A stretch of DNA of 64,000 nt. It comes from Limosilactobacillus sp. GTDB taxonomy: Bacteria; Bacillota; Bacilli; Lactobacillales; Lactobacillaceae. Below are positions 7,078-40,444 of the stretch, piece by piece; the first letter of the stretch is position 1; each line of letters begins with the position of its first letter. The position numbers were made by a program, and so were the translations under genes. Where the stretch lies: positions 1,054,001 through 1,118,000 of the forward strand of contig NZ_JAKVPE010000001.1 in NCBI RefSeq assembly GCF_022482365.1. Direction: 5' to 3'. The notes beneath the pieces are model-generated. The model was not told where the DNA came from, made no database searches, and worked only from the letters and a program-made list of their open reading frames with translations.

Positions 7078-7130
7078 ACAACTCACTAGTTAATAGAAAA
7101 AGGCCGCGCCCCGTTTTTACCGAAACTAAA

Positions 7131-7304
7131 AAAAGGCGGTGGGACAGAACTCGCTTGCGAGTTCGTCGTCCCACCCCCGCGAGGCCGGCTAGGCATTTCG
7201 GGCGTTGATTTATCAACGTTCGGAATCCAGCCGGCTACCGCGCTGCAGCATTTATAAGCTATATAACAGAAAAGAGGCTAGGTTAATTTCCCAGCCTCCT
7301 TAAT
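7131..7304 (-). repeat. Structured interspersed repeat, copy A
   Basis: About 175 bp that recurs at 28551-28745 in the same orientation and in the same setting, just downstream of a minus-strand gene. It contains a strong hairpin at one end (GGTGGGAC ... GCGAGTTC ... GTCCCACC on the minus strand, then GCCTTTTTTT), a middle stem (7184-7190 with 7229-7235), an inner stem ATTTCG/CGGAAT and a core hairpin CGTTGATAAATCAACG. Differences between the two copies preserve pairing. No ORF is conserved in it. It may be a mobile palindromic (MITE-like) unit or a structured RNA or terminator module. Confidence 0.7.
7268..7300 (-). terminator. Terminator after the cyclophilin gene
   Basis: On the minus strand GAGGCTGGG ... 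CCTAGCCTC followed by TTTTCT, directly after the stop codon; it forms the outer end of repeat copy A. Confidence 0.65.
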
Positions 7305-9064: not shown

Positions 9065-10639
9065 TTAGTTGTAAATTTCCTGGAGCTGCTCTACCCGGCG
9101 GCGCCACTCTTCCTGTTCCTGGGCGAAGTTCGGGGTCCGGTTGATGGACGGATCGTCCGAAGCCGCCTCCTGCAGGCCGGCCGTTCCGCCGATGTCGTCG
9201 ATGATTCCCGCTCCGGCGCCATCCAGCACGACCGCCCCGCTCATGCCAGCGTTGCGCAGCCGGGATTGCTTCTGCACGCTCTCGACCTTGATTTCAAACA
9301 TCCAGCTGTCGCCGAAGTCGTAGATCAGGGTCAACTCATCACCCGGCTGATACTCGCCCAGCCAGTGGAGCTCGATGTCCTGCTCGTTGCCGGCCCCGCT
9401 CTCAAACACCGGCAGCTGGAAGTGGTGGTCGCCGTCGTTGAGTTCGAAGAGGTGCCCACCGTTGGCCCTAAAGCTGGCCAGGATTTGGTAACAGAGCATG
9501 TCCAGCCGGGTTGCCCCGCTGACCCGCAGCTGGCGCCACATGGTCGGCTGGTAGTCCGCCAGCGTCACCGTCAGGGTGTAGGCATCGCCCCGAAAATGAC
9601 GGCCCCGATCCATCGCCTCCCGCTGCTGTTCAGCCTGCTGCTGCAGATTGCGGAGCAGGCGCTGCAGGTGGTAGACCCGCTGATGGGAATAGTGGTCGTT
9701 GATCCCCTGACCGACCGACTGGACGAACTGGTCGAAGTCGGCCGACGAGAAGAGCTGCTGGTTGCGCATGAAGCGACCCAGTTCCCGCAGCGCCGTCCCC
9801 AGGTTCCGCATTGCACTCATGCTCATCTGAACGTCGTTGAGTTCCTCATAGTGCAGCAGGTAGTTGTAGACCAGGCCGAGATCCGCCAACATCGAGACCC
9901 CCTCGCCCTCGCAAAAGCTGAGGTAGTCGGCCGCCGCGTTGAGGTCCCGGTCAATGATCTGATCACTCTTGTCCCGGTTCGTCAGGTAGCGTTGGTAGTC
10001 CTTCAAGAAGAGCTCGCTGACCGCCGTGGCGTTCATAACGTCGTTGAGCGAGGCGCTCCGGTACAGGTAGGAACGGTTGTGTTCGTTCAGCTGCGGGTGG
10101 GCCGGCAGCTGGTAGTTGTGGGCAACATAGTCCTCAAAGCGTTCGATCACCGTCTCCGAATCACCGGTCTGCGGATCCGGCAGCGTGGTATTTTCGGCCA
10201 GTTGGAGGGCCAGCTGGGCATTCGTCGGCTGCTCCTCCCAGTCAACCGGTGAATTGGGCCCGGTCAACATGTTCTGGTAGCGCTGCAGCTTCTGTTGGGC
10301 CGCCGACGAGAGCTGCCGGGTAAACTCAATCTCTTGGAACTGGTGCGACCGGATCATGCTGATCTTGGCGTGCGGCACCGGCAGCTCCCCCAATAGCTCG
10401 ATGAACTCCCGCTTGAAAGCCGTCACGAAGGCCCGTGAATCGTTGAAGCGCTGCGGGTGACGGACAATCACCGGCAGGGCCAGTGCGTTGTTGACAAAAA
10501 TAATGAAATCGCCCGCGGAACGGACGGACCAAGTTGCCGGACTGTCAAACTGGTCACGCGCAACTGGACCTGGATTGACGTGCAGATGCGATGCGGTCCG
10601 ATTTTCAATTGGGTAGATTGTAAAATTTAAGTTGAACAT
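9065..10639 (-). CDS. pRiA4b ORF3-like domain protein with long N-terminal region
   Basis: 524 residues. The C-terminal part (about 345-465, from YTLTVTLADYQPTMWRQL to LIYDFGDSWMFEIKVE) matches the plasmid pRiA4b ORF-3 family, often found as passenger genes near transposons. The N-terminal 200 residues look like a compact separate domain (beginning MFNLNFTIYPIE); the middle (200-340) is helical. Function unknown. Its ATG at 10639 lies within or at the edge of the left end of an IS30 element: upstream there is no ribosome site, only IS sequence, so the native promoter and leader have probably been separated from the gene. The true start could be further in. Confidence 0.7.
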   Translation of the reverse strand: MFNLNFTIYPIENRTASHLHVNPGPVARDQFDSPATWSVRSAGDFIIFVNNALALPVIVRHPQRFNDSRAFVTAFKREFIELLGELPVPHAKISMIRSHQFQEIEFTRQLSSAAQQKLQRYQNMLTGPNSPVDWEEQPTNAQLALQLAENTTLPDPQTGDSETVIERFEDYVAHNYQLPAHPQLNEHNRSYLYRSASLNDVMNATAVSELFLKDYQRYLTNRDKSDQIIDRDLNAAADYLSFCEGEGVSMLADLGLVYNYLLHYEELNDVQMSMSAMRNLGTALRELGRFMRNQQLFSSADFDQFVQSVGQGINDHYSHQRVYHLQRLLRNLQQQAEQQREAMDRGRHFRGDAYTLTVTLADYQPTMWRQLRVSGATRLDMLCYQILASFRANGGHLFELNDGDHHFQLPVFESGAGNEQDIELHWLGEYQPGDELTLIYDFGDSWMFEIKVESVQKQSRLRNAGMSGAVVLDGAGAGIIDDIGGTAGLQEAASDDPSINRTPNFAQEQEEWRRRVEQLQEIYN

Positions 10640-11648
10640 TTAAGTGGACAGAAAAACCCATCAAGGTCTTTAATGGTGTTACCGTACAATCCATTAGAAA
10701 GAAGGGCCTTGATGAGCACCACTATTTTATCATTCCAGAACCGTGTTGTCATTGAAACACTTCATAATGAAGGACGTTCCTTGCGATACATCGCTAACTA
10801 CTTAGGCTTTAGTAAGACCACCATCTTTAACGAACTTCACCGGCTAAATAGTGAGTACCAGGCTGAGCTAGCGCAAACTGACTTTGAACAAAAGGTTAGT
10901 CAACGGGGGCGGAAGTCTTCGCTCACTAAAAACCTTAAACACTTGGTCGAGGAAAAGATTCAAGTCCAGAAGTGGTCCCCTGAACAAGTTGCCCATGTGG
11001 TTGGGATTGCCTACAAGACGGTCTATAACTGGATTGATCAAGGCTGGCTTGATGTACAGCTACCCGATTTGCCTGATCATGGAATTCGTCGTCATCGTGC
11101 TAAAGAAAAGCGTGGTACGTTCAGTCACGGCCGCTCCATTGAGGAGCGTCCTCATAAAGTCGAAACTCGCCAGGAGTTCGGCCACTTTGAAGCTGATACC
11201 GTACTTTCTGGCAAACGTAAAGGTCAAGCTGTGGCTACTTTTGTGGAGCGTAAGAGTCGCCTGACAATTGTTAAACGGCTCCATGGCCGCGACAGTCAGT
11301 CTATGACTCAAGCCGTACTTGAACTAGCTAGTCAACTTCAAGACAAGCTCAAGACGCTGACCGTGGATCATGGGAAAGAGTTCGCTAACTATCAGACAAT
11401 TGAACGGCAAACTGGTACTCCGGTTTATTTTGCCCATGCTTATTCACCACATGAACGCGGTAGTAATGAGAACCGTAACCGAGTTTTGCGACGATTTATT
11501 CCCAAGGGACAAGCTATTGAAGAGCTGAGCGATCGCCAGCTGGTTCAAATCAATTGGTATCTGAATTCCCGGCCACTTAAATGTCTTAACTGGCGCACAC
11601 CAATCGAGATCTTCCTGCTTAATTTACGTCATTAAATTCGTTCAAGTT
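10631..11648 (+). mobile_element. IS30-family insertion sequence
   Basis: About 1 kb with a single transposase gene. Candidate imperfect terminal inverted repeats are TTGAACATTTAAGTGGAC (left, near 10632) and, reverse-complemented on the right, TTGAACGAATTTAATGAC (near 11646-11628). Exact ends and the 2-3 bp target duplication could not be fixed by eye. Coding sequence is less GC-biased than its neighbours, fitting acquisition. Confidence 0.75.
10712..11635 (+). CDS. IS30-family transposase
   Basis: 307 residues from ATG 10712 (AAGAAGGG upstream); an earlier in-frame ATG at 10673 has no ribosome site. N-terminal helix-turn-helix (RSLRYIANYLGFSKTTIFNEL) for binding the ends, then a DDE integrase core: D162 in HFEADTVLSGK, D219 in TVDHGKEF and E253 in HERGSNENRNR, with 33 residues between the last two as usual for IS30. 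The gene looks intact, so the element may still be active. Confidence 0.95.
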   Translation: MSTTILSFQNRVVIETLHNEGRSLRYIANYLGFSKTTIFNELHRLNSEYQAELAQTDFEQKVSQRGRKSSLTKNLKHLVEEKIQVQKWSPEQVAHVVGIAYKTVYNWIDQGWLDVQLPDLPDHGIRRHRAKEKRGTFSHGRSIEERPHKVETRQEFGHFEADTVLSGKRKGQAVATFVERKSRLTIVKRLHGRDSQSMTQAVLELASQLQDKLKTLTVDHGKEFANYQTIERQTGTPVYFAHAYSPHERGSNENRNRVLRRFIPKGQAIEELSDRQLVQINWYLNSRPLKCLNWRTPIEIFLLNLRH

Positions 11649-11704
11649 ATTTCTTGCAATCTGCCATTGCAATAAACACCCCTACCAACTCCTTTATTTT
11701 CTAC

Positions 11705-29619: not shown

Positions 29620-30801
29620 TTACTCCTCTTCCCTAATTGTTGTTACTTGTGCATCTTCCATTGCCTGCTCACTCAGCTCCTGGCCAATCCCCGGCCGGTC
29701 CGGGATCGCGTAGCTGCCGTCCACGGGGGCGTAGTGGTAGCGCCCGGACGCAATGTTGGCCGGCTTGCGGTTGACCTCGTGCTCCTCGTGAATCAAGAAC
29801 TGCGGACAGGCGGCCTCGAACTGCAGGGCCGCCGCGGTGGCAAGCGGGCCACCGCACACGTGCAGCTGGATGCTCAGCTCGTGGGCGGCGGCGAGGCCCA
29901 TGAGCCGCACGGCGGACGTGATGCCGCCGCAGTTCCCCAGGTCAGGCTGGAGCACCTGAATGCTCCCCGAATCGACCAGCGGGGCAAAACTGAGTGCGTT
30001 GGTCAGCCGCTCCCCCGTGGCCAGCGGCAGTCCAGATTGCTGGGCCACCGTCGCAAAGCCCGCCACGTTCTGTGGTGAGATCGGCTCCTCAAAGTAGGAG
30101 ACGTTCAGCGGCGCCAGCTTGTGAGCCAGGGCGATCGCCGCTGCCGGCTCGAGCTTGGCGTGGCAGTCGACAATGAGGCGGGTCTGCTCCCCGGCCGCTT
30201 TTCTGATCGCCGCCACCCGGTCATAGGCCTCCTGCAGCTGGTGCGAATCGAGCAGGCCGCGGAACGGCAGGAAAGTCTTGCCCCGCTCAAAGTTCAGGGG
30301 ATCAATCTTGATGCCCGAATACCCCTGCCCAACCACCCGCTTGGCCAGGCGGGCGAAATCATCCGGCGCGGTCACGTAGCGGGGGAAGGGCCCCCAGCCG
30401 TATTCGATGTGGCTGGCGTAGGCAGGCAGCCGATCGTGAACCTTGCCGCCCAGCAGCTGGTAGACCGGTTGGCCCAGCGCCTTTCCCTTGAGGTCCCAGA
30501 GGGCGATGTCGATCGCCGAGACGGCGGAGTAGAAAACCACGCCCCCGCCCTTGGCCCAGAAGGAATGCTGGTAGAAGTCCTGCCAAATTTGGCTGATCTG
30601 CGCGGGGTCCCTCCCGATGAGGCGGTGGGCCAGCTCCTGGAGGACGCCAACCGTGCCGACGCTACCGATTCCATAGGCGGTCCCGGCCTCGCCAAAGCCG
30701 GTCAGTCCCGTGTCGGTCGTCAGCCGGACGACGACCGGGTGCCAGACCGGGCTGAGGCCCTGCCAGTGCAGCTGGTAAATGTCGACCTGCTTAATCTTCA
30801 T
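29620..30801 (-). CDS. Enolase-superfamily sugar-acid dehydratase-like enzyme
   Basis: 393 residues from ATG 30801 (GGGGGC region upstream), the start nested in the end of the lipoate ligase gene. Mandelate racemase/muconate lactonising fold: an N-terminal capping domain and a barrel with metal ligands D212, E238 (SYFEEP) and E264 (ATGERL). Acid/base residues differ from mandelate racemase: KxD (K165-I-D167), DxH (D212-C-H214) and LHVCGG (H314), the layout of galactonate/gluconate-type sugar-acid dehydratases. Substrate not determinable by eye. Confidence 0.83.
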   Translation of the reverse strand: MKIKQVDIYQLHWQGLSPVWHPVVVRLTTDTGLTGFGEAGTAYGIGSVGTVGVLQELAHRLIGRDPAQISQIWQDFYQHSFWAKGGGVVFYSAVSAIDIALWDLKGKALGQPVYQLLGGKVHDRLPAYASHIEYGWGPFPRYVTAPDDFARLAKRVVGQGYSGIKIDPLNFERGKTFLPFRGLLDSHQLQEAYDRVAAIRKAAGEQTRLIVDCHAKLEPAAAIALAHKLAPLNVSYFEEPISPQNVAGFATVAQQSGLPLATGERLTNALSFAPLVDSGSIQVLQPDLGNCGGITSAVRLMGLAAAHELSIQLHVCGGPLATAAALQFEAACPQFLIHEEHEVNRKPANIASGRYHYAPVDGSYAIPDRPGIGQELSEQAMEDAQVTTIREEE

Positions 30802-31840
30802 TGTCCGGCGCCCCCTTCGCGGCCTCTTCGACCAACTTATCGGCAACCTGGGTGGCGGCACCGGACGTCACGCTCTGGTCAAAGTTGAATTGTTCAAGGA
30901 TGGCAACCAGCCGATCCTTATTCGGCTGCGTCCCGTCGAGCGCCCGGGCAATCTGGTCGGCCCGCTTTTGGTCGAGGTACATCAGGTCGCCGTAAAGCTT
31001 CACGTGGGTTAGCCGGCTAGCGTCAAGGTCAAAGCCAATCCCCACGCTGCCGACGCCGTGGAAGTAAAGATCGACGTAGTGACTGGCGAGGCTGCTGCCG
31101 TAGATCCAGGTCTTGGCGCCGTACTTGCGCTTGCCCAGGTCCAGGACAGCCTGCCATTCCTCCTTCGTCAGCTGGTAGGTATGAAAGTCGGGATCATTCG
31201 CCCGGACGTTTTGGAGGATCAGCTCGCGCAGGTCCCGGGTCGTCGTCGGCCGGTTGAAGTGTGGCAGGAGGTTGGTGACCCGGCTGCGGACGGATTCGAT
31301 TCCCTTGTCCTCCAGCTTCGACTTCGGTGGTGTCAGGACCTGGTTGGCCTGGTCCAGGTCGACGTTGACCATCAGGGTGCCACCGTAGGAAACCCGGTCG
31401 CCGACGTTAGCAAAGGACATCCCCGAGAACTTCTGCCCCTGGTAAGTCAGGTCGTTGCGTCCGGTCTGCTGGGCATCAACCCCCAGCTGGCGCAGCGCCT
31501 TGAGGATTGGCCGGATGTACTGGTCAAACTTCGGTGTCTTGACCTTCTGGGCGGTATCGATGTAGACATAGGTGAGGTCGCCGGGATCGACGAAGACCGC
31601 ACCCCCGCCGGAATTGCGCCGCACCAGGGCAATTTTGTGCTCGCGGAGGTACTGGAGGTTGACCTCGTGATAGACGTCCTGATAGTGGCCGAGGATGACC
31701 ACCGGCTGGGCCGGACTGTAGAAGTACAGCAGCTCCTCGTGGGCAAACTTCGGGTCCCGTTGCAAAAATTCGGGCAAGGCCTCCGGGACCAGCGGGTTGG
31801 CCAGGTAGTCCAGTCCATTATCCGTATCAATATACAGCAC
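30791..31840 (-). CDS. lplA: Lipoate-protein ligase
   Basis: 349 residues, BPL/LplA ligase fold with C-terminal accessory domain; attaches free lipoate (via lipoyl-AMP) to dehydrogenase E2 or GcvH proteins. Motifs: RRNSGGGAVFVDPGDLTYVY (lipoyl-AMP loop), GRNDLTYQGQKFSGMSF. GTG start at 31840 with GGGGA 7 bp upstream. Its last codons overlap the next gene by 11 bp (ATGAAGATTAA), so the enolase-superfamily gene is translationally coupled to it, an unusual pairing. Confidence 0.9.
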   Translation of the reverse strand: MLYIDTDNGLDYLANPLVPEALPEFLQRDPKFAHEELLYFYSPAQPVVILGHYQDVYHEVNLQYLREHKIALVRRNSGGGAVFVDPGDLTYVYIDTAQKVKTPKFDQYIRPILKALRQLGVDAQQTGRNDLTYQGQKFSGMSFANVGDRVSYGGTLMVNVDLDQANQVLTPPKSKLEDKGIESVRSRVTNLLPHFNRPTTTRDLRELILQNVRANDPDFHTYQLTKEEWQAVLDLGKRKYGAKTWIYGSSLASHYVDLYFHGVGSVGIGFDLDASRLTHVKLYGDLMYLDQKRADQIARALDGTQPNKDRLVAILEQFNFDQSVTSGAATQVADKLVEEAAKGAPDNED

Positions 31841-31992
31841 TTTAACATCCCCACTTCATTTATTGGCGACTATTAGACTCAATCGCTTTTATTGTAGCTT
31901 TATTTTGTCAAAATAAAAGCAACTACACTCGAAAGAAATGAAAGATAACTTTAGGACTTAAGATGTAACCATTTACCTCTTCGATTAACGAA

Positions 31993-32022
31993 AAAAAGAA
32001 TAGTAAAAATACTATTCTTTTT
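31993..32022. terminator. Terminator overlapping the 68-residue gene's stop
   Basis: AAAAAGAATAGTA / TACTATTCTTTTT, 13-bp stem with 4-nt loop and T/A runs on both sides. Confidence 0.75.
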
Positions 32023-32218
32023 CATGCAATTTATCGGTAATTAAATCTTGAAAATATAACAATTCGTCTCGCGTGGCCTTTTTGGTTATAAAGTTCTTTG
32101 CCTTGCTTTTTAGCTGGTTGCGGTAAATAACCTCTTTATGTTTATCCTGGTAACGCTTATTGCTTTCTAGCTTTCTTTGGTAAGCCTCTTCCGGCGTATA
32201 TTTCCTAGCTCGTGGCAA
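32012..32218 (-). CDS. Small basic protein, unknown function
   Basis: 68 residues, TTG start with AAGGGG about 9 bp upstream. Very basic and helical (EEAYQRKLESNKRYQDKHKE), no hydrophobic segment; the size and composition resemble orphan proteins of plasmids and phages, but no family was recognised. AT-rich compared with its neighbours. 5 bp downstream of a 38-residue membrane protein gene. Confidence 0.6.
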   Translation of the reverse strand: MPRARKYTPEEAYQRKLESNKRYQDKHKEVIYRNQLKSKAKNFITKKATRDELLYFQDLITDKLHEKE

Positions 32219-32223
32219 ACCTA

Positions 32224-32340
32224 TTACCCCTTTTTAATCATGTCCTTGATCTCTTGATATAAAGCTTTGCATTGCTTTATTCCTATAATTATAAATATAG
32301 CAGCTAAACCATATATAGCAATTAGCAAAAGATACTTCAT
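32224..32340 (-). CDS. 38-residue single-span membrane protein
   Basis: ATG at 32340 with GGGGGA 7 bp upstream. Begins MKYLLLIAIYGLAAIFIIIG, one TM helix (about 3-22), followed by a charged amphipathic tail (KALYQEIKDMIKKG). A -10-like TATACT lies near 32360-32365 on the minus strand. AT-rich. Could be a small toxin, holin-like peptide or regulator; no family recognised. Confidence 0.6.
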   Translation of the reverse strand: MKYLLLIAIYGLAAIFIIIGIKQCKALYQEIKDMIKKG

Positions 32341-32382
32341 TTTACATCCCCCGTTTTATTTAGTATAATAACATTAATTGAA

Positions 32383-32417
32383 AAAGGGGCAAGCGGTGCA
32401 ACGCTCAACCCCTTTTT
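32383..32417. terminator. Bidirectional terminator-like hairpin
   Basis: AAAAAGGGG ... CCCCTTTTT with an inner AGCG/CGCT pairing. Confidence 0.7.
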
Positions 32418-32426
32418 GTAGGCTAT

Positions 32427-32564
32427 TTAGGACCGTTTGGAACGGGCCTTTTTCTTTATCCAGCGAATAAGCTGGGTAAGGTACTCGACTATCGTGAAAA
32501 TAGCAACAAATGAGCCGCTATATAACGACAATAAAGTACCGATCTTCAAGGATGTTAAAACCAC
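32427..32564 (-). CDS. Possible type I toxin-like small membrane peptide
   Basis: A 45-codon frame, hydrophobic core TLLSLYSGSFVAIFTIVEYL followed by a strongly basic end (RWIKKKARSKRS), the general plan of type I toxin peptides. A GTG at 32564 opens the frame but has no ribosome site and lies in a hairpin stem; a TTG at 32549 is another option. On the opposite strand TATATA (32519-32524) with GTGAAA upstream could start a roughly 70-nt antisense RNA ending at the 32557-32594 terminator. Tentative. Confidence 0.35.
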   Translation of the reverse strand: MVLTSLKIGTLLSLYSGSFVAIFTIVEYLTQLIRWIKKKARSKRS

Positions 32565-32595
32565 TCAACTCATTTTCGAGAAGAGTGGTTTTTTC
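32557..32595. terminator. Terminator between the aldo/keto reductase gene and the small-ORF island
   Basis: AAAACCACTC ... GAGTGGTTTT, T6 on the plus strand and TTTTAA on the minus strand; works for the reductase gene and for any plus-strand antisense transcript. Confidence 0.75.
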
Positions 32596-32601
32596 GTTCG
32601 T

Positions 32602-33429
32602 CTAAATTTTCTCCAGCGGCACCTTGGTCGTCGGGGCCGGGTATTCCTCATCGATCATCCTTAGTTCGTCATCCGTCAGCTCCAGGTCCAAAGCCGCGAT
32701 ATTGGCCTTGACGTGGTCGACGGAACTGGCCTTGGGCAGGCTGAGGACGTTGTTGTTGCGGGTGATCCAGGCCAGCATCACCTGGTATGGCGTCGCGTGG
32801 TGAGCCGCCCCGATCTCGCGCAAGACCAGTGTCGGGTGAAGGTAGTTCCAGCCGACCGCGTGAAACGGCGAGTAGCCGAGGAAGCCAATCCCCCGCTGGG
32901 CCTGCCACGGCAACAGGTCGTACTCGACGCCGCGGCTTGCGATGTTATAGAGGTCCTCGTTGGCAAAGACCTGGCCACCGTCCGGCACCTTCAGGAGGTC
33001 CTCCATGTCCGCCACGTCAAAGTTGGAAACGCCCCAGTGGCGGATCAGCCCCTCCTGCTTGAGGCCCTCCAGGCCGGCCACTGCCTGGGCAAGGTCGGCG
33101 TTGGCCCGCCAGTGCAGGAGGTAGAGGTCCAGGTAGTCGGTCCCCAGCTGCTTCAGGCTGGCTTCCAGGCTGCGCCGCTCCTGATCCGGCGTGGCGTGGC
33201 TCGGCAGGACCTTGGAGACAATGAAGGTCTGCGAACGGTCGAGCCCCTGCATCGCCCAGCCGATGATCTTCTCGCTGCCCGGGTAGCTCTCCGCCGTGTC
33301 GACCACGTTGATCCCGTGAGTCAGGCCGTAGTGGATTGCGGCGGCCTCGTTTTCGGGCTGGCGGCCCAGATCCGCCCCGCCGAGGCCAATCTGGCTGAGC
33401 TTTTCACCCTTAATCGTTAAATACTTCAT
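32602..33429 (-). CDS. Aldo/keto reductase
   Basis: 275 residues from ATG 33429, with GGAGG 8 bp upstream. Catalytic residues in GINVVDTAESYPGSE (Asp, Tyr), VSKV (Lys) and LLHWRAN (His). The cofactor helix LPKASSVDHVKAN replaces the usual (I/L)PKxxxxxR. A different branch from the reductase at 17538. It starts 5 bp after the methyltransferase stop, so the two are coupled. Confidence 0.88.
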   Translation of the reverse strand: MKYLTIKGEKLSQIGLGGADLGRQPENEAAAIHYGLTHGINVVDTAESYPGSEKIIGWAMQGLDRSQTFIVSKVLPSHATPDQERRSLEASLKQLGTDYLDLYLLHWRANADLAQAVAGLEGLKQEGLIRHWGVSNFDVADMEDLLKVPDGGQVFANEDLYNIASRGVEYDLLPWQAQRGIGFLGYSPFHAVGWNYLHPTLVLREIGAAHHATPYQVMLAWITRNNNVLSLPKASSVDHVKANIAALDLELTDDELRMIDEEYPAPTTKVPLEKI

Positions 33430-33434
33430 CTTTT

Positions 33435-34127
33435 CTACCTCCTTCGCGGATAGCGCTTGGCAATTAAAACCTTGGTCGTCGTCCAGGGGCCGCCCCACCA
33501 GCCGTTGAAGCCGGTCGACAGCACCCGAATGTCGTTGAAGCCGAGGTTACCCAGTGCCCGCTGGTACTCATCAATGTAGGCGCAGTCGGCGATCACCAGC
33601 GTCCCGTCGGCCTTCAGCACCCGGCTGGCCTCCTGAACCGCCCGGCCGCGCTCCAAGGCGGGGCCGATGTTGTGAAAGGCCAGGTCGACCAGGACGTAGT
33701 CGAAGGAGCGGTCCGCAAAGTTCAGGTTGAAGACGTCGGCGTCGACCAGCTTGACCCGGTCGGCCACCTTGGCTGCGTTAATCCGACCCTGGAGCTCCTT
33801 TTCGTCCTGGCGCCAGTCGCCAGTCCCGGTAACCTTGGCGGGGGCCGTCAAGCTCTTGGCCAGCAGGAGCAGGTCGTTGAACCGCCCGCCGCTGAGGTCC
33901 AGGATCTGGTCATGACCGCCAAAGCCGAAGCGGTCGATGATCCCCTGCCAAACCCGCAGGTGCCCGGCCGTCATCGTGTGGGTGAGGATCAGGCCCCAGG
34001 CGGCCAGCAGCACAACCCAGAGCAGGTTCCAGTAATGGGCGCTGATCAGGCTGTAAATCAGGCCGCCGACCACCAGCAGGATGTCCACGGCCAAGAGGGT
34101 AATAACGTTGATTCCACGTAGTTTCAT
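33435..34127 (-). CDS. Membrane-attached class I SAM methyltransferase
   Basis: 230 residues. Two N-terminal TM helices (about 8-28 and 33-52) precede a Methyltransf_11-like domain: motif I ILDLSGGRFNDLLLLAK, then VKLVDADVFNLNF, SFDYVLVDLAFHN and VLKADGTLVIADC. Motif I reads DLSGGRF where DxGxGxG is usual, so SAM binding may be altered. AAGGAAG precedes the ATG. Operon with the aldo/keto reductase. Substrate unknown; its position at the membrane suggests a lipid or quinone-like target (inference). Confidence 0.78.
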   Translation of the reverse strand: MKLRGINVITLLAVDILLVVGGLIYSLISAHYWNLLWVVLLAAWGLILTHTMTAGHLRVWQGIIDRFGFGGHDQILDLSGGRFNDLLLLAKSLTAPAKVTGTGDWRQDEKELQGRINAAKVADRVKLVDADVFNLNFADRSFDYVLVDLAFHNIGPALERGRAVQEASRVLKADGTLVIADCAYIDEYQRALGNLGFNDIRVLSTGFNGWWGGPWTTTKVLIAKRYPRRR

Positions 34128-34143
34128 AATGATTGCTTCCTTA

Positions 34144-34812
34144 TTAACTGACGATATCGTTCAAGCGCTGGATGTCCTCCAGCTTGCCGACCACGGTGAC
34201 CTTGTCGCCCTCCTGAATCACGTCGTTGGCCTGGGGCATCTGGTTGACCTGGTCGTCGGCGCTGACGATGATGATCACGGTGACGTGAAACTTGTTGCGA
34301 AAGTCCAGCTCGTCCAGGCTGCGGCCCACGAACTTCGGGTTGTCGATCACCACTTCGGCCAGGGTCGTTTCCTTGCTCAGGGTGACGTAATCGACGACGC
34401 TCGGGTTGAGCTGCTGGAAGATCAGCCGCTTGGCCAGGTCGTGCTCCGGCCGGACGACCCGGTCGGCACCGACCCGCTCCAGCACCCGGGCGTGGTTGGC
34501 GTTTTCGGCCCGGCAGGTCACGTCTTTGGCGCCGAGGTCCTTGGCAATCAGGGTTGCCATGATGCTGGCCTCGATGTTCTGCCCGATCGAAATGTAAACG
34601 TGGTCGAAGCTGCCCACGTCGAGTTCGCGCAGGGCGTCCTCGTCCTGGGCGTCGGCGACCACGGCCCGCATGACCGAGTTGGCCAGTTCATTGATGACTT
34701 CTTCGTTGATGTCAATCGCCAGGACCTCCTGGCCGGCCGCGACCAGCGCCTCACAGATTGACGCGCCGAACTGGCCGATGCCGATGACGGCGTAGCTTTC
34801 TTTTTTAGCCAA
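34144..34812 (-). CDS. KtrA/TrkA-type potassium channel regulatory subunit
   Basis: 222 residues: RCK_N domain with GIGQFG (11-16) and the acidic end of the nucleotide site in LAIDIN, and RCK_C domain (about 140-222). Binds ATP/ADP (and in relatives c-di-AMP) on the cytoplasmic side to gate KtrB. TTG start at 34812 with GGAGGAGAG about 11 bp upstream. It overlaps the end of the ktrB-like part of the upstream gene by 8 bp, so the regulatory subunit is intact although its partner is truncated. Confidence 0.88.
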   Translation of the reverse strand: MAKKESYAVIGIGQFGASICEALVAAGQEVLAIDINEEVINELANSVMRAVVADAQDEDALRELDVGSFDHVYISIGQNIEASIMATLIAKDLGAKDVTCRAENANHARVLERVGADRVVRPEHDLAKRLIFQQLNPSVVDYVTLSKETTLAEVVIDNPKFVGRSLDELDFRNKFHVTVIIIVSADDQVNQMPQANDVIQEGDKVTVVGKLEDIQRLNDIVS

Positions 34813-36469
34813 TTAAAACACTCTCCTCCGGATAACGATAGCTCTTCGTCTTCGGCCGGGCGTTGAAAACCGAGAACATGACGGTGTAGATGCCGACCCG
34901 CCCGATGAACATCAGGATCATGATGATGACCTGGCCGATGAAGTTCAGCTGGGGCGTGATCCCCAGTGAAATCCCGGTGGTCCCGAACGCCGCCACGGCC
35001 TCGAAGGTCACGTAGGACAGCGAATCGTGCTTCGGCAGGGCCTGGGTTTCGACCAGCAGGAGGACGGCGACGAAGAGGATCAGCAGGGCCACGAAGAGCA
35101 GGGTCAGCGCCCGGTAGACGTTCTCCTGGGTGAAGCGCCGGTGGGCAAACTCGGTATCCTTCTGCCCACGCAACGTGGCGATGCTCTGGACGGCCAGGAG
35201 CCCGACCGTGGTCGTCTTGATCCCGCCGGCCGTCGATCCGGGGGTCCCGCCGATAAACATCAATAGGATCGTAAAGCTCAGCCCGGCCGCGCTCAGTTTA
35301 TTATAAGGAAAGGTGATCAGTCCCGCGGTCCGCGGCGTAATCGCCATGAAAATCGTGTTGAGAAAGCGTTGCGGCGCCGAGAGCTGCCCACTGAGCTGGG
35401 CCAGGTTGTGCTCGGTCAAAAAGTAGACGATGACTGAGGTGATCATCAGGACCGCCCCGGTGCGCAGGGCCAGCTGGGTGTGCAGGGATAAGTGGTGGTA
35501 CTTGTGGTAGCCCAAGATGTCCTTCCAGACCAGGAAACCAAAGGAACCGGCCAGGATCAAGACCGCCAGGACGCAGATCATGTAGGGGTCATTGGCGTAA
35601 TTCTCCATGCTGTTGCCGAAGAGGTCAAAGCCGGCGTTGCAAAAGGCCGAGATGGCGTGAAAGAGGCTGTACCAAATCGCCCGCGTCAGCCCGTACTTCG
35701 GGTAGAAATCAAAGAACAAGAAGACGCTGCCGATCAGCTGGATCAGAATCGAGAGGCGGATGATCAGGTAGACCACGCTCAGTTGCGACAGGTGGTCGAG
35801 GTTCAGGGCCTCCTGAGTCAGCAAGCGGGTCGACATTCGCCTCCGCCGCCGAATCATCAGGGACATCATGACGGCAAAGGTCATGAAGCCCAGGCCACCA
35901 ATCTCCATCAGGGCGGCGATCACCACCTGGCCGAGAAGTGCGTAGTCCGCCTGGGCGTCAGTACGGGGCACGACGAACTCCTCGATCAGCTGGTCGAAGA
36001 GGTCCGGCAGGCGGTAGTCGCTGGCCCAGTCACCGAGCTGGCGCAGGGCACGCTGGTGGTCACGGATGGCCCGGTTGCGCCGGTGGTAGACCCCTGGCTG
36101 GTTAATGACGTTGTGCTGCAGCTGAAGGTCGGTGATGGCCTGACGCAGCTTCTGCAGGATGACCGGGTCGACTGGCAATTGAAGGGCCCGGAGCAGCTGG
36201 GTGGCCGAGAGCTTCCCCGCTTCAAAGTAGGCGTTGTCACCGAAGCGGTAGGTGATGGTGTTGGGCAGCTTGGCATACTCACCGGTCGGGTCGAGGATGA
36301 TTGCCGTCTCGTTCTGTTGCTGAAGCTGGCTCAGCAGGGATAAAGTGGTGGTGGTCTTGCCACTCCCCGTCTGGCCGACGATCAGGAGATGATGAGCGAA
36401 AAGCGCGTCGGTCAGCTGCGATTGCTGGCTGGCGCTCAAAGACGATGGATATTGGATGGCTGATTGCAC
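34805..36469 (-). pseudogene. In-frame chimera: HerA-like ATPase N-terminus fused to KtrB potassium channel lacking its first pore repeat
   Basis: One open frame of 554 codons, GTG start with AAGGAGG 7 bp upstream. Residues 1 to about 178 are the start of a DUF87/HerA-like ATPase: Walker A GQTGSGKT (32-39) and ILDPTGEY (58-65). From about 180 (LLGQVVIAALMEIGGLGFMT) the chain is KtrB/TrkH: pore loops SAFCNAGFDLFG, TPRTAGLIT and AFGTTGISLG, and the gating loop GGTPGSTAGGIKTTT. Three of four MPM repeats are present; the first, with its CVTGL-type filter, is missing, and so are the Walker B and rest of the ATPase. It most likely arose by a deletion joining two neighbouring genes near 35930. Neither function should be normal; the frame is nevertheless intact. 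Confidence 0.8.
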
Positions 36470-36540
36470 GATGATTCCTCCTTTTTTCTACTATAAATAT
36501 TATGGGCTAAATTGCTGAAAAGGCAACCAGCATTGAGGGC

Positions 36541-36630
36541 AAACAAAAAGACGCCCTCGTCTGTTAGACAGCTGGGCGCCTTCTTGATCAAATATTTTAG
36601 GGAGACTACGGTTTGATACCCGTAGTAAAC
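36541..36630 (-). ncRNA. Candidate short terminated transcript upstream of the chimera
   Basis: On the minus strand TTGACA (36665-36660), 17 bp, TAAACT (36642-36637) is a good promoter. The predicted RNA of about 90 nt has a hairpin ACTACGG...CCGTAGT and ends in a strong stem GGCGCCC...GGGCGTC followed by TTTTTGTTT (36585-36541). The terminator is about 70 bp before the chimera ribosome site, so it could be a leader attenuator or an sRNA. No known riboswitch was recognised. Confidence 0.5.
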
Positions 36631-36687
36631 AATATAAGTTTATTTGAATTTCTACCGAATGTCAATGAACAAATCAAGATTTAATGC

Positions 36688-36733
36688 AAAAAAGTACCCC
36701 GCGATAGGATTTCCTACCGCGGGGTACTTTTTT
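36688..36733. terminator. Strong bidirectional terminator
   Basis: AAAAAAGTACCCCGCG ... CGCGGGGTACTTTTTT, nearly perfect, between efp and the unit upstream of the chimera. Confidence 0.85.
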
Positions 36734-36792
36734 GCTTTAAACTTTAGCGACCAATGATCATCCCCAACTCTGTAAAGAGGCAATTTAAAACA

Positions 36793-36826
36793 AAAAAACT
36801 CCCTACCCGAAAGTAGAGAGTTTTGT
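36793..36826 (-). terminator. Terminator of efp
   Basis: Minus strand AAAACTCTCTAC...GTAGGGAGTTTTTTTG, 19 bp beyond the efp stop. Confidence 0.8.
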
Positions 36827-36844
36827 GTGTGATTCAGTTCGCGA

Positions 36845-37402
36845 TTAAGCCCGTGACTTGTAGCTGCCATCAGTGGTGTTGATGATCAGCTTGTCGCCGT
36901 CCTTGATGAAGGCTGGGACGTTGACAACCAGGCCGGTGTTCATAGTAGCAGGCTTGCCACCGCCATCGATGGTTGCACCCTTGATCATTGGTTCAGTGTG
37001 GGCAACCGTCATTTCAACCGTGGTTGGCAGGTCAACACCGATGATGTCGCCGTTGACGAAGTTCAGAGTGACCTTCATGTTTTCTACCAGGTAGTTCTTG
37101 TCGTCACCCAGCAGGTCGTGGCTCAGCGTGTATTGGTCGTAGCTCTCCAGGTCCATGAAGACGGCGTTGTCGCCTTCGTCGTAGAGGTATTGAGCAGAAC
37201 GCTTGTCAACGTTAACCTGTTCAACCTTTTCGGAAGGACGCATCGTGGTGTGAACAATGGAGCCGGTCCGCAGATCCTGGATGTCCATCTGCATCAGGGT
37301 GTTACCCTTACCTGGCTTGTGGTGGTTGATTTGAAGAACCTTGAGCAGCTTGCCGCCACGTTCAAAAACCATACCCTTTTTCAAATCGATCGTTTGAATC
37401 AT
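36845..37402 (-). CDS. efp: Elongation factor P
   Basis: 185 residues, full length. Binds the ribosome between P and E sites and relieves stalling at proline runs. KOW-like domain I with the loop HHKPGKGNT (modified Lys in bacilli), then two OB domains, including the C-terminal signature region MIKGATIDGGGKPATMNTGLVV split over about 135-160. AAAGGAG precedes the ATG. The 5' leader is about 130 nt with a GCAGTTGATCGCCTGACTGC hairpin; an extended -10 TGATACAAT lies near 37536-37544. Confidence 0.96.
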   Translation of the reverse strand: MIQTIDLKKGMVFERGGKLLKVLQINHHKPGKGNTLMQMDIQDLRTGSIVHTTMRPSEKVEQVNVDKRSAQYLYDEGDNAVFMDLESYDQYTLSHDLLGDDKNYLVENMKVTLNFVNGDIIGVDLPTTVEMTVAHTEPMIKGATIDGGGKPATMNTGLVVNVPAFIKDGDKLIINTTDGSYKSRA

Positions 37403-37614
37403 GTCAAAATCTCCTTTGTATCATAAGTAAGTGCGTTCATCACGGAACTTTAAGCAGTCAGGCGATCAACTGCTTCGGCCGCACCCGGGGCCGTTTTTAG
37501 TGTGCTGCTTCACGACAGCATTCACCATTTATTGTATCACATCTGGCCGGGAAACGCCTTATTGCGGGGGGATTGGTGACTATATTTTCAACTAAAATAA
37601 AACAGCGGTAGTGG

Positions 37615-37715
37615 TATAATGTAGGCACAATGATGAAAAAACCGGTGTGCAAATTGGCATAGGGGTAGCTCCTCTTACCGAGCCGGCGGGGCACTTGAAA
37701 AAGCGCCCTTTTTTG
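37615..37715 (+). ncRNA. Candidate small RNA 1 (between efp and glyA)
   Basis: Extended -10 TGGTATAAT (TATAAT 37615-37620), then about 85 nt ending in GGGGC...GCGCCC plus T7. CCGG (37642-37645) can pair with CCGG (37683-37686) and GTGC just after the first with GCAC (37691-37694), which would be a pseudoknot; a GGTA/TACC hairpin lies inside. A 10-codon frame MMKKPVCKLA starts near the 5' end without a ribosome site. No adjacent plus-strand gene, so not an ordinary leader. No known RNA family recognised. Confidence 0.45.
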
Positions 37716-37780
37716 TATTCGCCAATAACAAAAATGAAATTAAAATTTCAAATTAAGCACTGTTCAAAATATTATATCTA

Positions 37781-37876
37781 TTGACATTCCTATTGCTATT
37801 TTGTGATAATACAGTTAATCAATTAAATGACTCTTTAGAGTCCGGAAAGACGGGGCGCAATTCCCGTCTTTTTTTA
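37781..37876 (+). ncRNA. Candidate small RNA 2 (between efp and glyA)
   Basis: TTGACA (37781-37786), 17 bp, TGATAA (37804-37809), then about 60 nt containing GACTC TTTA GAGTC and the terminator AAAGACGGG...CCCGTCTTTTTTT (37846-37874). Complete promoter-to-terminator unit with no ORF. The remainder of the 37403-37934 gap holds the efp leader, small RNA 1 and the glyA terminator. Confidence 0.5.
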
Positions 37877-37885
37877 TTTTGCACT

Positions 37886-37925
37886 AAAAAAATGACCACC
37901 GCACAACCGTGCAGTGGTCATCTTT
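37886..37925 (-). terminator. Terminator of glyA
   Basis: Minus strand ATGACCACTGCAC...GTGCGGTGGTCAT followed by T7. Confidence 0.85.
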
Positions 37926-37934
37926 ATTTACAAA

Positions 37935-39176
37935 CTAGTCTTCGTCAATTGGGTGCTTGGTCGTCAGCTCGTGGACGCCCTGAGCCACCTCTTCGCGAAC
38001 CGCGTCGTCATCGGCGTTGGTCAGCAGCTTGACGATCAGGTCGGCGACTTGGCGGGCATCGTCTTCCTTAAAGCCCCGGCTGGTGATGGCCGGCGTCCCA
38101 ATCCGCAGCCCACTGGTAACGAATGGGCTCCGTGGGTCGCCAGGGATTGATTCCTTGTTGGTCGTGATGTGAACCGCGTCGAGCAGGTCCTGGGCATCCT
38201 TGCCGGTGATGCCGGTCTTGGTGATGTCGATGATCATCAGGTGGTTGGCAGTGCCGCCGGAAACGACCCGCACCGCGCCGGACTTGCTGAATTCATCGGC
38301 CATGGCAGCGGCGTTCTTAACTACCTGGTTGATGTAGTCGGTGAACTGTGGCTGCAGGTCTTCATAGAATGCCTGGGCCTTGCCGGCAATCACGTGTTCC
38401 AGCGGGCCACCCTGGGTTCCTGGGAAGAGGGCGGAATTGATCTTCTTGCCCAGCTTGGCGTCCTTGGACAGGATCATCCCCCCACGTGGGCCACGCAGGG
38501 TCTTGTGGGTAGTCGTCGTAACCACGTCGGCAACCGGCACCGGACTCGGGTGGGCGCCAGTGGCAACCAGGCCGGCGATGTGGGCCATGTCAACCATCAG
38601 GTAAGCGCCAACCTCATCGGCGATCTCGCGGAACTTCTGCCAGTCGATGATCTGGCTGTAAGCGGAGGCCCCGGCCACGATCAGCTGTGGTTGAACTTCC
38701 TTGGCGATTTCACGAATGTGGTCGTAGTCGAGCAGCTCGGTCTCTGGGTCCAGGCCGTAGCTGAAGGATTGGTAGACCTTCCCACTGAAGTTAACCTTGG
38801 AGCCGTGGGTCAGGTGCCCACCGGCGTCCATCCCCATGCCGAGGATCTTGTCACCGGGCTTCAGCAGCGCCTGGTAGACGGCCATGTTGGCTTGGGAGCC
38901 GGAGTGAGGCTGAACGTTGACGTATTCGGCACCGAAGAGCTTCTTGGCGTAGTCGATCGCCAGCTGTTCGACCTGGTCGATGTACTGGCAGCCACCGTAG
39001 TAACGCTTGCCAGGATAGCCTTCCGCGTACTTGTTCGTCAAGACGGAGCCCTGCGCCTGGCGGACTTCCTTAGAGACGATGTTTTCGGAGGCGATCAGTT
39101 CGATCGTGTCCTGCTGCCGTTGTTCTTCCTTTGCGATTGCTGCCCACAGTTCGGGTGATTTGCCTGCATATTCCAT
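37935..39176 (-). CDS. glyA: Serine hydroxymethyltransferase
   Basis: 413 residues; PLP enzyme converting serine and tetrahydrofolate to glycine and methylene-tetrahydrofolate, the main source of one-carbon units. PLP Lys in [24 protein letters not shown] and [13 protein letters not shown] are family hallmarks. Start at ATG 39176 (GAGGAGG 9 bp upstream), not at the upstream in-frame ATG at 39230. TATAAT (39222-39227, minus strand) is the likely -10, so that upstream ATG would precede the transcript. Regulated perhaps by PurR (see the PurBox-like sites). Confidence 0.96.
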
Positions 39177-39276
39177 TTGGAAATTCCTCCTCTGGTTGAC
39201 TTCGTTGCATTTGTCAATTTGATTATACAATACAAAGCCCGGATATTAAAAGGCCTTTGAAAAATAATTATTTAAA

Positions 39277-39321
39277 ATAATCGAACTTTATTTGTGAAAT
39301 CGCTAGCTAAAGTTCATGATT
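39277..39321 (-). promoter_or_regulatory. PurBox-like inverted pair upstream of glyA
   Basis: ATAATCGAACTTT (39277-39289) and, inverted, AATCATGAACTTT (39321-39309) match the PurR PurBox AWWWCCGAACWWT at 12 and about 10 of 13 positions, 19 bp apart and upstream of the glyA promoter, as in purine-regulated one-carbon genes of Firmicutes. Confidence 0.5.
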
Positions 39322-39340
39322 TAATTTGATGAGGACAGAG

Positions 39341-39374
39341 AAAAGGACCCGCTCAGCACAGCTGGCGGGTCCCA
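39341..39374 (-). terminator. Terminator of the 38-residue gene
   Basis: Minus strand GGACCCGC...GCGGGTCC followed by TTTTCT. Confidence 0.8.
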
Positions 39375-39392
39375 CTTAGTTTCGGGTGGAGA

Positions 39393-39509
39393 CTAGTCTT
39401 CGACCTTCTTGGCTTCTTCCATTGCCTTCATGATGGAAGGGTTCTTGGAGTGACAGTCCTTGATCATTTGCAGGTCTTCTTCGCTTAATTCAACCGTGTA
39501 CTTAGCCAT
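39393..39509 (-). CDS. 38-residue acidic/helical protein, unknown
   Basis: ATG at 39509 with GTGAGGGAG just upstream and its own terminator. Begins MAKYTVELSEEDLQMIKD and ends EEAKKVED; the ELSEEDL pattern is common in small soluble helical proteins. No hydrophobic segment. The strong ribosome site, G/C-rich third positions and dedicated terminator argue for a real gene. Confidence 0.65.
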   Translation of the reverse strand: MAKYTVELSEEDLQMIKDCHSKNPSIMKAMEEAKKVED

Positions 39510-39592
39510 ATTTCTCCCTCACTTTGCTTAAAGAATTAACTTTAATATACCACACTGAGCCCGCGATGCACGGTCAAATTCGACAAGTTGCT

Positions 39593-40444
39593 TTATCGTG
39601 CCTGCTCTAGATAATGCCAGGCTTCCTCGTAAGAAAGATTGTACGCATCCATTAGCTTATGAACAATTGTTTCATCATCCAGCCGCAAGCTGATAAGCAT
39701 TTTCACCGCAGACTCGATGCCCTGTTCACGACCCTTTTTCAAGCCGATTGCTTGACCTTCGTTCCGTGCTTCCATTAAATCTAACTCGTACTTCATAAAG
39801 CTCCGCCGCCTTTCTGGATCGTGCTTGATTCGCTCCATTTTTTGATAAATTCGTTCTGCTAACTCATCCCCCGGCGTTCGCTCATTATGCATTAGGCGGA
39901 GGAATCCTGCTACCCCCATTTTATCATGAAAGTCTGTTGCCTTCGCATTGAAAACTACCATGTAAAACTCCGCTCCGGCAGAACGATCGGGATTTTTGAC
40001 CGAGCGCATCTCATATTCATCGAACATCTCGTCGTCGCCGTAATAGTCAAAGTCGCAGAAGAAAATCACGTAGATCGGGGTGACATGCTGCTCATCATAC
40101 TTGTCACCAGGCTTGAGTATATCCGCATGGTTCAAGTAGTAGCGCATTCTGAATGGCAGATTATGATTGTTCTTCACCTGCATCTCTAGAATATATATCC
40201 GGTTTTGATCATCTTGCACATAAACGTCAAAGCGCGGCGACTTGACACCCAGCGTTGTATTGACCTGCTTTTGCGTCGCAACTCGTTGGATACTTTTGAT
40301 CTTTAGCTCCGGGAAAATTTGCTGGAGCAGTTGCAAGCAGATCTGCTCGTCCTCCATGACCATTCCAAACATACGATCATTCGCCAACGTTAGCCGCTCC
40401 CACTTGGCCGCGGCCGCCCGTCTTTCTTGTTCTCGGCTGCTCAT
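39593..40444 (-). CDS. Rpn-family PD-(D/E)XK nuclease (transposase-derived)
   Basis: 283 residues from ATG 40444 (GGAGGG 8 bp upstream). Family of recombination-promoting nucleases (PDDEXK_2, once called putative transposases). N-terminal LTLANDRMFGMVMEDE, active-site strand pair SPRFDVYVQDD and RIYILEMQV (Asp, then E-x-Q), and a C-terminal helical tail with RNEGQAIGLKKGREQG repeats. Often multicopy and variable between strains. Less G/C-biased than neighbours, suggesting transfer. It sits beside the giant adhesin gene. Confidence 0.88.
   Translation of the reverse strand: MSSREQERRAAAAKWERLTLANDRMFGMVMEDEQICLQLLQQIFPELKIKSIQRVATQKQVNTTLGVKSPRFDVYVQDDQNRIYILEMQVKNNHNLPFRMRYYLNHADILKPGDKYDEQHVTPIYVIFFCDFDYYGDDEMFDEYEMRSVKNPDRSAGAEFYMVVFNAKATDFHDKMGVAGFLRLMHNERTPGDELAERIYQKMERIKHDPERRRSFMKYELDLMEARNEGQAIGLKKGREQGIESAVKMLISLRLDDETIVHKLMDAYNLSYEEAWHYLEQAR

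Follow-up and report, generated by a model that had tools for sequence, protein, structure and literature searches.

An open DUF87/HerA-like ATPase-ktrB gene fusion in a Limosilactobacillus genome, probably formed by a recent deletion

The genome of the Limosilactobacillus strain analysed here, a gut-type lactic acid bacterium, harbours a gene in which the front of a DUF87/HerA-like ATPase is joined in frame to the back of the potassium channel subunit KtrB. In all likelihood the two genes were joined by a recent deletion from one GGCCAG word to another, and the functions of both parents were very probably lost; most likely, the fused gene is an ordinary pseudogene created by a recent deletion. 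The window, i.e. the whole stretch of 64,000 nucleotides under study, comprises positions 1054001-1118000 of an assembly that consists of a single contig of 2,335,319 bases. The fused frame and its neighbours are listed in Table 1.

Table 1. Features of the ktr region, given as positions in the window.
Feature	Position	Strand	Description
Fused frame	34805..36469	-	554 aa, GTG start
5' part, DUF87/HerA-like ATPase origin	35936..36469	-	residues 1-178; retains Walker A, without the Walker B half
Junction GGCCAG	35927..35932	-	Gly-Gln, residues 180-181; same reading in both L. kribbianus parent genes
3' part, ktrB origin	34805..35932	-	begins at L. kribbianus residue 83 (457-codon frame); remainder of repeat 1 and repeats 2-4
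ktrA, intact	34144..34812	-	TTG start, 222 aa, TrkA_N and TrkA_C; 8-bp overlap with the fused frame (34805-34812)
Presumed efp (elongation factor P)	36845..37402	-	upstream neighbour in the shared block; 185/185 residues identical to L. kribbianus
Presumed methyltransferase-like gene	33435..34127	-	downstream of ktrA; order shared with L. kribbianus and L. pontis

The open frame described by the original prediction, which had left the strand unnamed, is real and reads through its 554 codons from a GTG start at 36469 to a stop at 34805-34807. Both proposed halves were recovered by domain searches. Within the first approximately 178 residues, assigned to the HerA/DUF87 type, the Pfam model DUF87 matched residues 21-73 with 47.4 bits (cut-off 23.2), and both the Walker A motif GQTGSGKT (residues 32-39) and the motif ILDPTGEY are present. 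The remainder matched TrkH at residues 179-539 with 181.1 bits (cut-off 27), the alignment covering positions 91-495 of the 502 of the profile and leaving its start unmatched. The NCBIfam TrkH-family model was entered at position 38 of 391 and, with 273.1 bits, did not reach its cut-off of 331.15, which is hardly informative since the full-length ktrB product of L. kribbianus also remains below it (323.7 bits). An AGGAGG-type ribosome site lies just 5' of the GTG start, and a promoter-like sequence at 36526-36499 agrees with the consensus at 9 of 12 positions (a consensus match only). Judging from these signals and the clean frame, the fused protein may be made. The Rfam search of window positions 30000-40000 gave no match at gathering score.

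Separate parent genes were found in the relatives. The nearest relative found was L. kribbianus, whose DNA is 92% identical along 2,934 bases reaching from the ktrB part past ktrA. A full-length ktrB in one frame was present in all 26 loci compared (24 from Limosilactobacillus or other relatives, one from Ligilactobacillus and one from Paucilactobacillus), and in 17 of them the ATPase gene lay upstream of it in the same orientation, within the stretch taken per locus; a weak ATPase piece of 61 residues was also recorded in locus L021. The recurrent order is efp, ATPase, variable genes that often include an oleate hydratase, ktrB and ktrA. Some species carry between ATPase and ktrB a gene which we take to be of DUF915 type (no NCBIfam match) together with an oleate hydratase gene on the opposite strand (906.2 bits, NCBIfam), others neither, and the distance between the Gly-Gln words of the two parents amounts to 3,974 bp in L. 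pontis and 1,035 bp in L. frumenti. The expectation of adjacent full-length parents in related genomes was thus borne out as far as separate genes of the same block are concerned, but additional genes separate them in many relatives. The source genome proceeds from efp to the ATPase front, at once to the ktrB back, and then to ktrA. In the L. kribbianus assembly the parents are located on two contigs (ATPase on the small contig C71, ktrB on C1); the arrangement that preceded the deletion is inferred from the gene order of other species. In the draft genome of L. pontis the oleate hydratase gene itself is split into two frames (L005:2864-4635).

The parent ATPase comprises 391 residues in L. 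kribbianus and a frame of 436 residues in L. pontis. The 178 residues retained in the fusion therefore correspond to about 41-46% of the protein rather than to the N-terminal third proposed originally. They are approximately 67-69% identical to the L. kribbianus ATPase, with saturated silent sites, while the other compared genes of the locus are 95-100% identical to those of L. kribbianus. Decay of the ATPase part within the fusion was considered and found to be unsupported, since the intact genes of L. kribbianus and L. pontis differ equally (66% amino acid identity), which indicates that this ATPase gene is variable in general. In many Limosilactobacillus species it keeps its place close to ktrB, but only about 66% of its amino acids are shared among L. 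kribbianus, L. pontis and the window.

The join, predicted near 35930, falls on the word GGCCAG, whose Gly-Gln reading corresponds to residues 179-180 of the ATPase and 83-84 of KtrB in the L. kribbianus frames. The same word, read as Gly-Gln, occurs in the ATPase genes of L. kribbianus and L. pontis and in the ktrB of L. kribbianus, while the L. pontis ktrB has GGTCAG at this place and thus differs by one base. The source genome lacks the whole stretch from ATPase codon ~179 to ktrB codon ~83; the ktrB identity starts at L. kribbianus residue 83, and tblastn extends it to 79. In a whole-genome search the ATPase was matched only over residues 6-181 of 391, a single TrkH-family place was detected, and the oleate hydratase had no match anywhere in the source genome, although the same search matched it in three of three relatives. 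Beyond the fused gene and a split kimA gene described below, no second copy or relocated remnant was found in searches that covered the ATPase, the TrkH family, the front of KimA and the oleate hydratase; remnants of the KtrB front (residues 1-82), of the presumed DUF915-type gene and of the L. kribbianus frames of GGDEF/EAL type may have escaped these searches.

These features suggest a recent deletion between identical GGCCAG words in the DUF87 ATPase gene and ktrB, presumably by illegitimate recombination or slippage. Such an event would have fused the ATPase start together with its ribosome site to the back of ktrB in frame, would have abolished the functions of both parents and would have left ktrA downstream without a whole channel subunit. 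Pseudogenes and gene fusions are known to arise by deletion between short repeats. The present case resembles them in the identity of a few bases at the join, the loss of the intervening DNA and the restriction to one lineage, and differs in that the frame happens to remain open. Six shared bases alone would be weak evidence for the mechanism. An in-frame outcome is not surprising either: of the 583 pairs of places at which the two L. kribbianus parent genes share a six-base word 287 are in phase, i.e. the odds are about even, and as both parents read GGCCAG as Gly-Gln the frame would have stayed open without any selection.

According to an alignment to the solved KtrB structure 8k1s, the lost residues 1-82 of KtrB (L. 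kribbianus frame) hold what we take to be M1, pore helix 1 and the first filter segment. As regards the first pore loop, the proposed loss of the first M-P-M repeat with retention of pore loops 2-4 agrees with this alignment and with the late entry into the TrkH profile; the remainder of repeat 1 is kept. KtrB is defined by four M-P-M repeats contributing one filter segment each, a number the fused protein does not reach, and by an adjacent KtrA (RCK) partner, which is present and, as had been claimed, intact and overlapping the end of the fused frame. Compared with the KtrAB channel of Bacillus subtilis (8k1s, 4j7c), residues 180-554 of the fused protein align along KtrB, but about 179 unrelated residues take the place of M1, pore helix 1 and filter 1. 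Hydropathy analysis likewise showed that the stretch at L. kribbianus residues 19-47 is missing and that the first remaining hydrophobic stretch spans fused residues 177-206. Membrane helices tend to be oriented according to the positive-inside rule; with the sequence RRRRR following this first helix (~178-206), the rule would place the ATPase part on the outer side of the membrane.

The ATPase part itself resembles the Limosilactobacillus DUF87/HerA-like ATPases in its front with the Walker A motif, being 69% identical to that of L. kribbianus, but lacks Walker B and the C-terminal half of the RecA-like fold, including the motif DEAHRYL of the relatives, which we assume to be of Walker B type. 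HerA-type structures matched the L. kribbianus ATPase mainly at residues 224-352, a region absent from the fusion. An AlphaFold2 model based on 36 sequences reached a mean pLDDT of ~59 for residues 1-170, 68 for residues 171-230 and 88 for residues 231-540, and its best Foldseek hits were KtrB structures (8k1t, TM-score 0.61 by query, 379 columns). Lacking the Walker B half as well as M1, pore helix 1 and filter 1, the fused gene is very probably null for the functions of both parents, and the deletion would entail the loss of Ktr-type potassium uptake.

The whole fused query was matched in only one of 50 genomes of the genus, that of the source strain itself, which is the only representative of its species in this survey. 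Among the other 49, none of which has the fused gene, 37 contain a ktrB relative, open over at least 447 residues in 36 cases. The 12 genomes without a ktrB match, four of which are less than 90% complete, indicate that the absence of ktrB is not rare in the genus. A 24-base sequence spanning the junction occurred only in four loci of the source genome itself among the 136 loci searched. Two further candidates were dismissed: the 383-aa frame of genome G009 is part of a ktrB split into two frames, with no ATPase match in the 7-kb stretch examined, and the 504-aa frame of G044 is an ordinary full ktrB. The G009 gene (L132, G009:C5) is broken around residues 84-97, i.e. by a different break in the same gene. 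Searches of paper titles did not reveal a KtrB/DUF87 fusion among the matches listed.

A comparison rooted with L. pontis assigned to the KtrB part one nonsynonymous and 20 synonymous codon changes in the lineage of the window compared with three and 25 in that of L. kribbianus (5 and 21 ambiguous), and to KtrA zero and 16 in the lineage of the window. The KtrB part is thus free of visible decay after the join, which fits a young and a selected fusion alike; the absence of the fusion from the relatives searched favours a recent join, and the fusion is probably young.

Potassium uptake may be affected beyond ktrB. The source genome also encodes a relative of KimA, a potassium/proton symporter of the KUP family (6s3k, E 3.5e-96), as a second potassium importer, but this copy (C1:2039750-2041587; L105:2251-4088) is interrupted near codon 290-300 by a one-base frameshift that leaves two frames, as seen in a comparison from which genome G022 was left out. 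A kimA match was obtained in 48 of the 50 genus genomes, and in the other 47 the frame is open over at least 612 residues. Neither Kup above the cut-off nor KdpA was found in the source genome, the positive controls being six and five, respectively, of 14 named genomes; a Kup candidate below the cut-off (20.5 bits) falls inside kimA. One frame of 256 aa matching the potassium channel-type model PF07885 was detected, and one or two such frames occur in each of four relatives. A draft genome of the genus (G019) has neither a ktrB nor a kimA match and may be a parallel of a double loss.

Of the two readings offered by the original prediction, the loss of Ktr by a frame-keeping deletion has gained support from the separate full-length parents, the in-phase identity at the join, the occurrence in one of 50 genomes and the little change since, whereas the reading as something new found no positive support beyond the open frame. 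A working protein, either a membrane domain of three loops bearing a head that binds nucleotides or a competitor sequestering KtrA, would account for the kept frame, the kept ktrA and the undecayed KtrB part. A young deletion would equally show no decay, however, and the confinement to a single genome, the missing Walker B half and first filter segment, the predicted position of the ATPase part outside the cell and its poor model make this extremely unlikely. We regard it as very unlikely, too, that the living strain holds both full genes and that the assembler collapsed the stretch between them. In favour of such an artefact, the one-base change of kimA lies in a short one-base run, an error type of long reads, so that the kimA frameshift is possibly a residual assembly error. 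On the other hand, the 2.34-Mb genome is a single contig with a completeness of 100 and a contamination of 1.26, the oleate hydratase and the back half of the ATPase were matched nowhere in it, and an identity of a few bases at the join would presumably be too short to mislead an assembler. Furthermore, 36 of 38 L. kribbianus frames of at least 100 aa matched with more than 60% identity in two regions stay in one frame, the exceptions being ktrB and kimA (four further L. kribbianus frames of the ktrB-side region had no match), so that the assembly is not riddled with frameshifts.

The same comparison, in which both recognised potassium importers are hit while nearly all other frames are intact, could point to a selected loss, in which a harmful potassium influx favoured both the deletion in ktrB and the frameshift in kimA. 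Suppressors of c-di-AMP-free Bacillus subtilis with a defective ktrC are reported to have later gained kimA mutations, and another suppressor to have lost ktrB through a frameshift (PMC7857571), and loss of ktrB restores several traits in a streptococcal cdaA mutant (PMC10243994). In the strain studied here, however, a c-di-AMP defect at the level of synthesis finds no support as the cause, as the synthase CdaA looks intact: it is full length (287 aa) and differs from that of L. kribbianus in five residues, none of them in DGA or RHR, which we take to be the CdaA motifs. Two events are also few, and a selected loss appears unlikely. Slightly less doubtful, but still speculative, is the broader notion that every recognised active potassium importer has been lost, that the strain relies on an unrecognised entry route or lives under conditions rewarding the loss, and that the fused protein might still bind KtrA and a nucleotide.

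If the deletion reading preferred here is correct, the fused protein itself is most likely of no consequence, being the product of a loss-of-function deletion. Annotators may nevertheless credit the strain with Ktr uptake since the fused frame still gives a TrkH match of 181 bits. If the kimA frameshift is true, both recognised potassium importers would be naturally mutated in this strain, which would make it useful for learning how a lactobacillus obtains potassium and whether its c-di-AMP control is altered; this double hit puts the finding slightly above routine. Reportedly, B. subtilis without KtrAB and KimA is unable to grow at low potassium (PMC5573677), and loss of KtrA in E. faecalis weakens growth under stress, which is restored by added potassium (PMC9945522).

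Apart from the ktr region, a sequence of ~170 bp at window positions 7123-7300 occurs in several copies across the L. kribbianus genome; an internal repeat was looked for within it and not found. Positions 10612-11668 are an insertion relative to the L. kribbianus contig and contain a 320-aa frame; as its terminal pieces recur at the ends of many L. kribbianus contigs, it is probably an insertion sequence. A single frame of 7439 codons on the minus strand (40622-62941) has LPQTG and a hydrophobic tail close to the end; we read it as encoding a giant repetitive surface-type protein.
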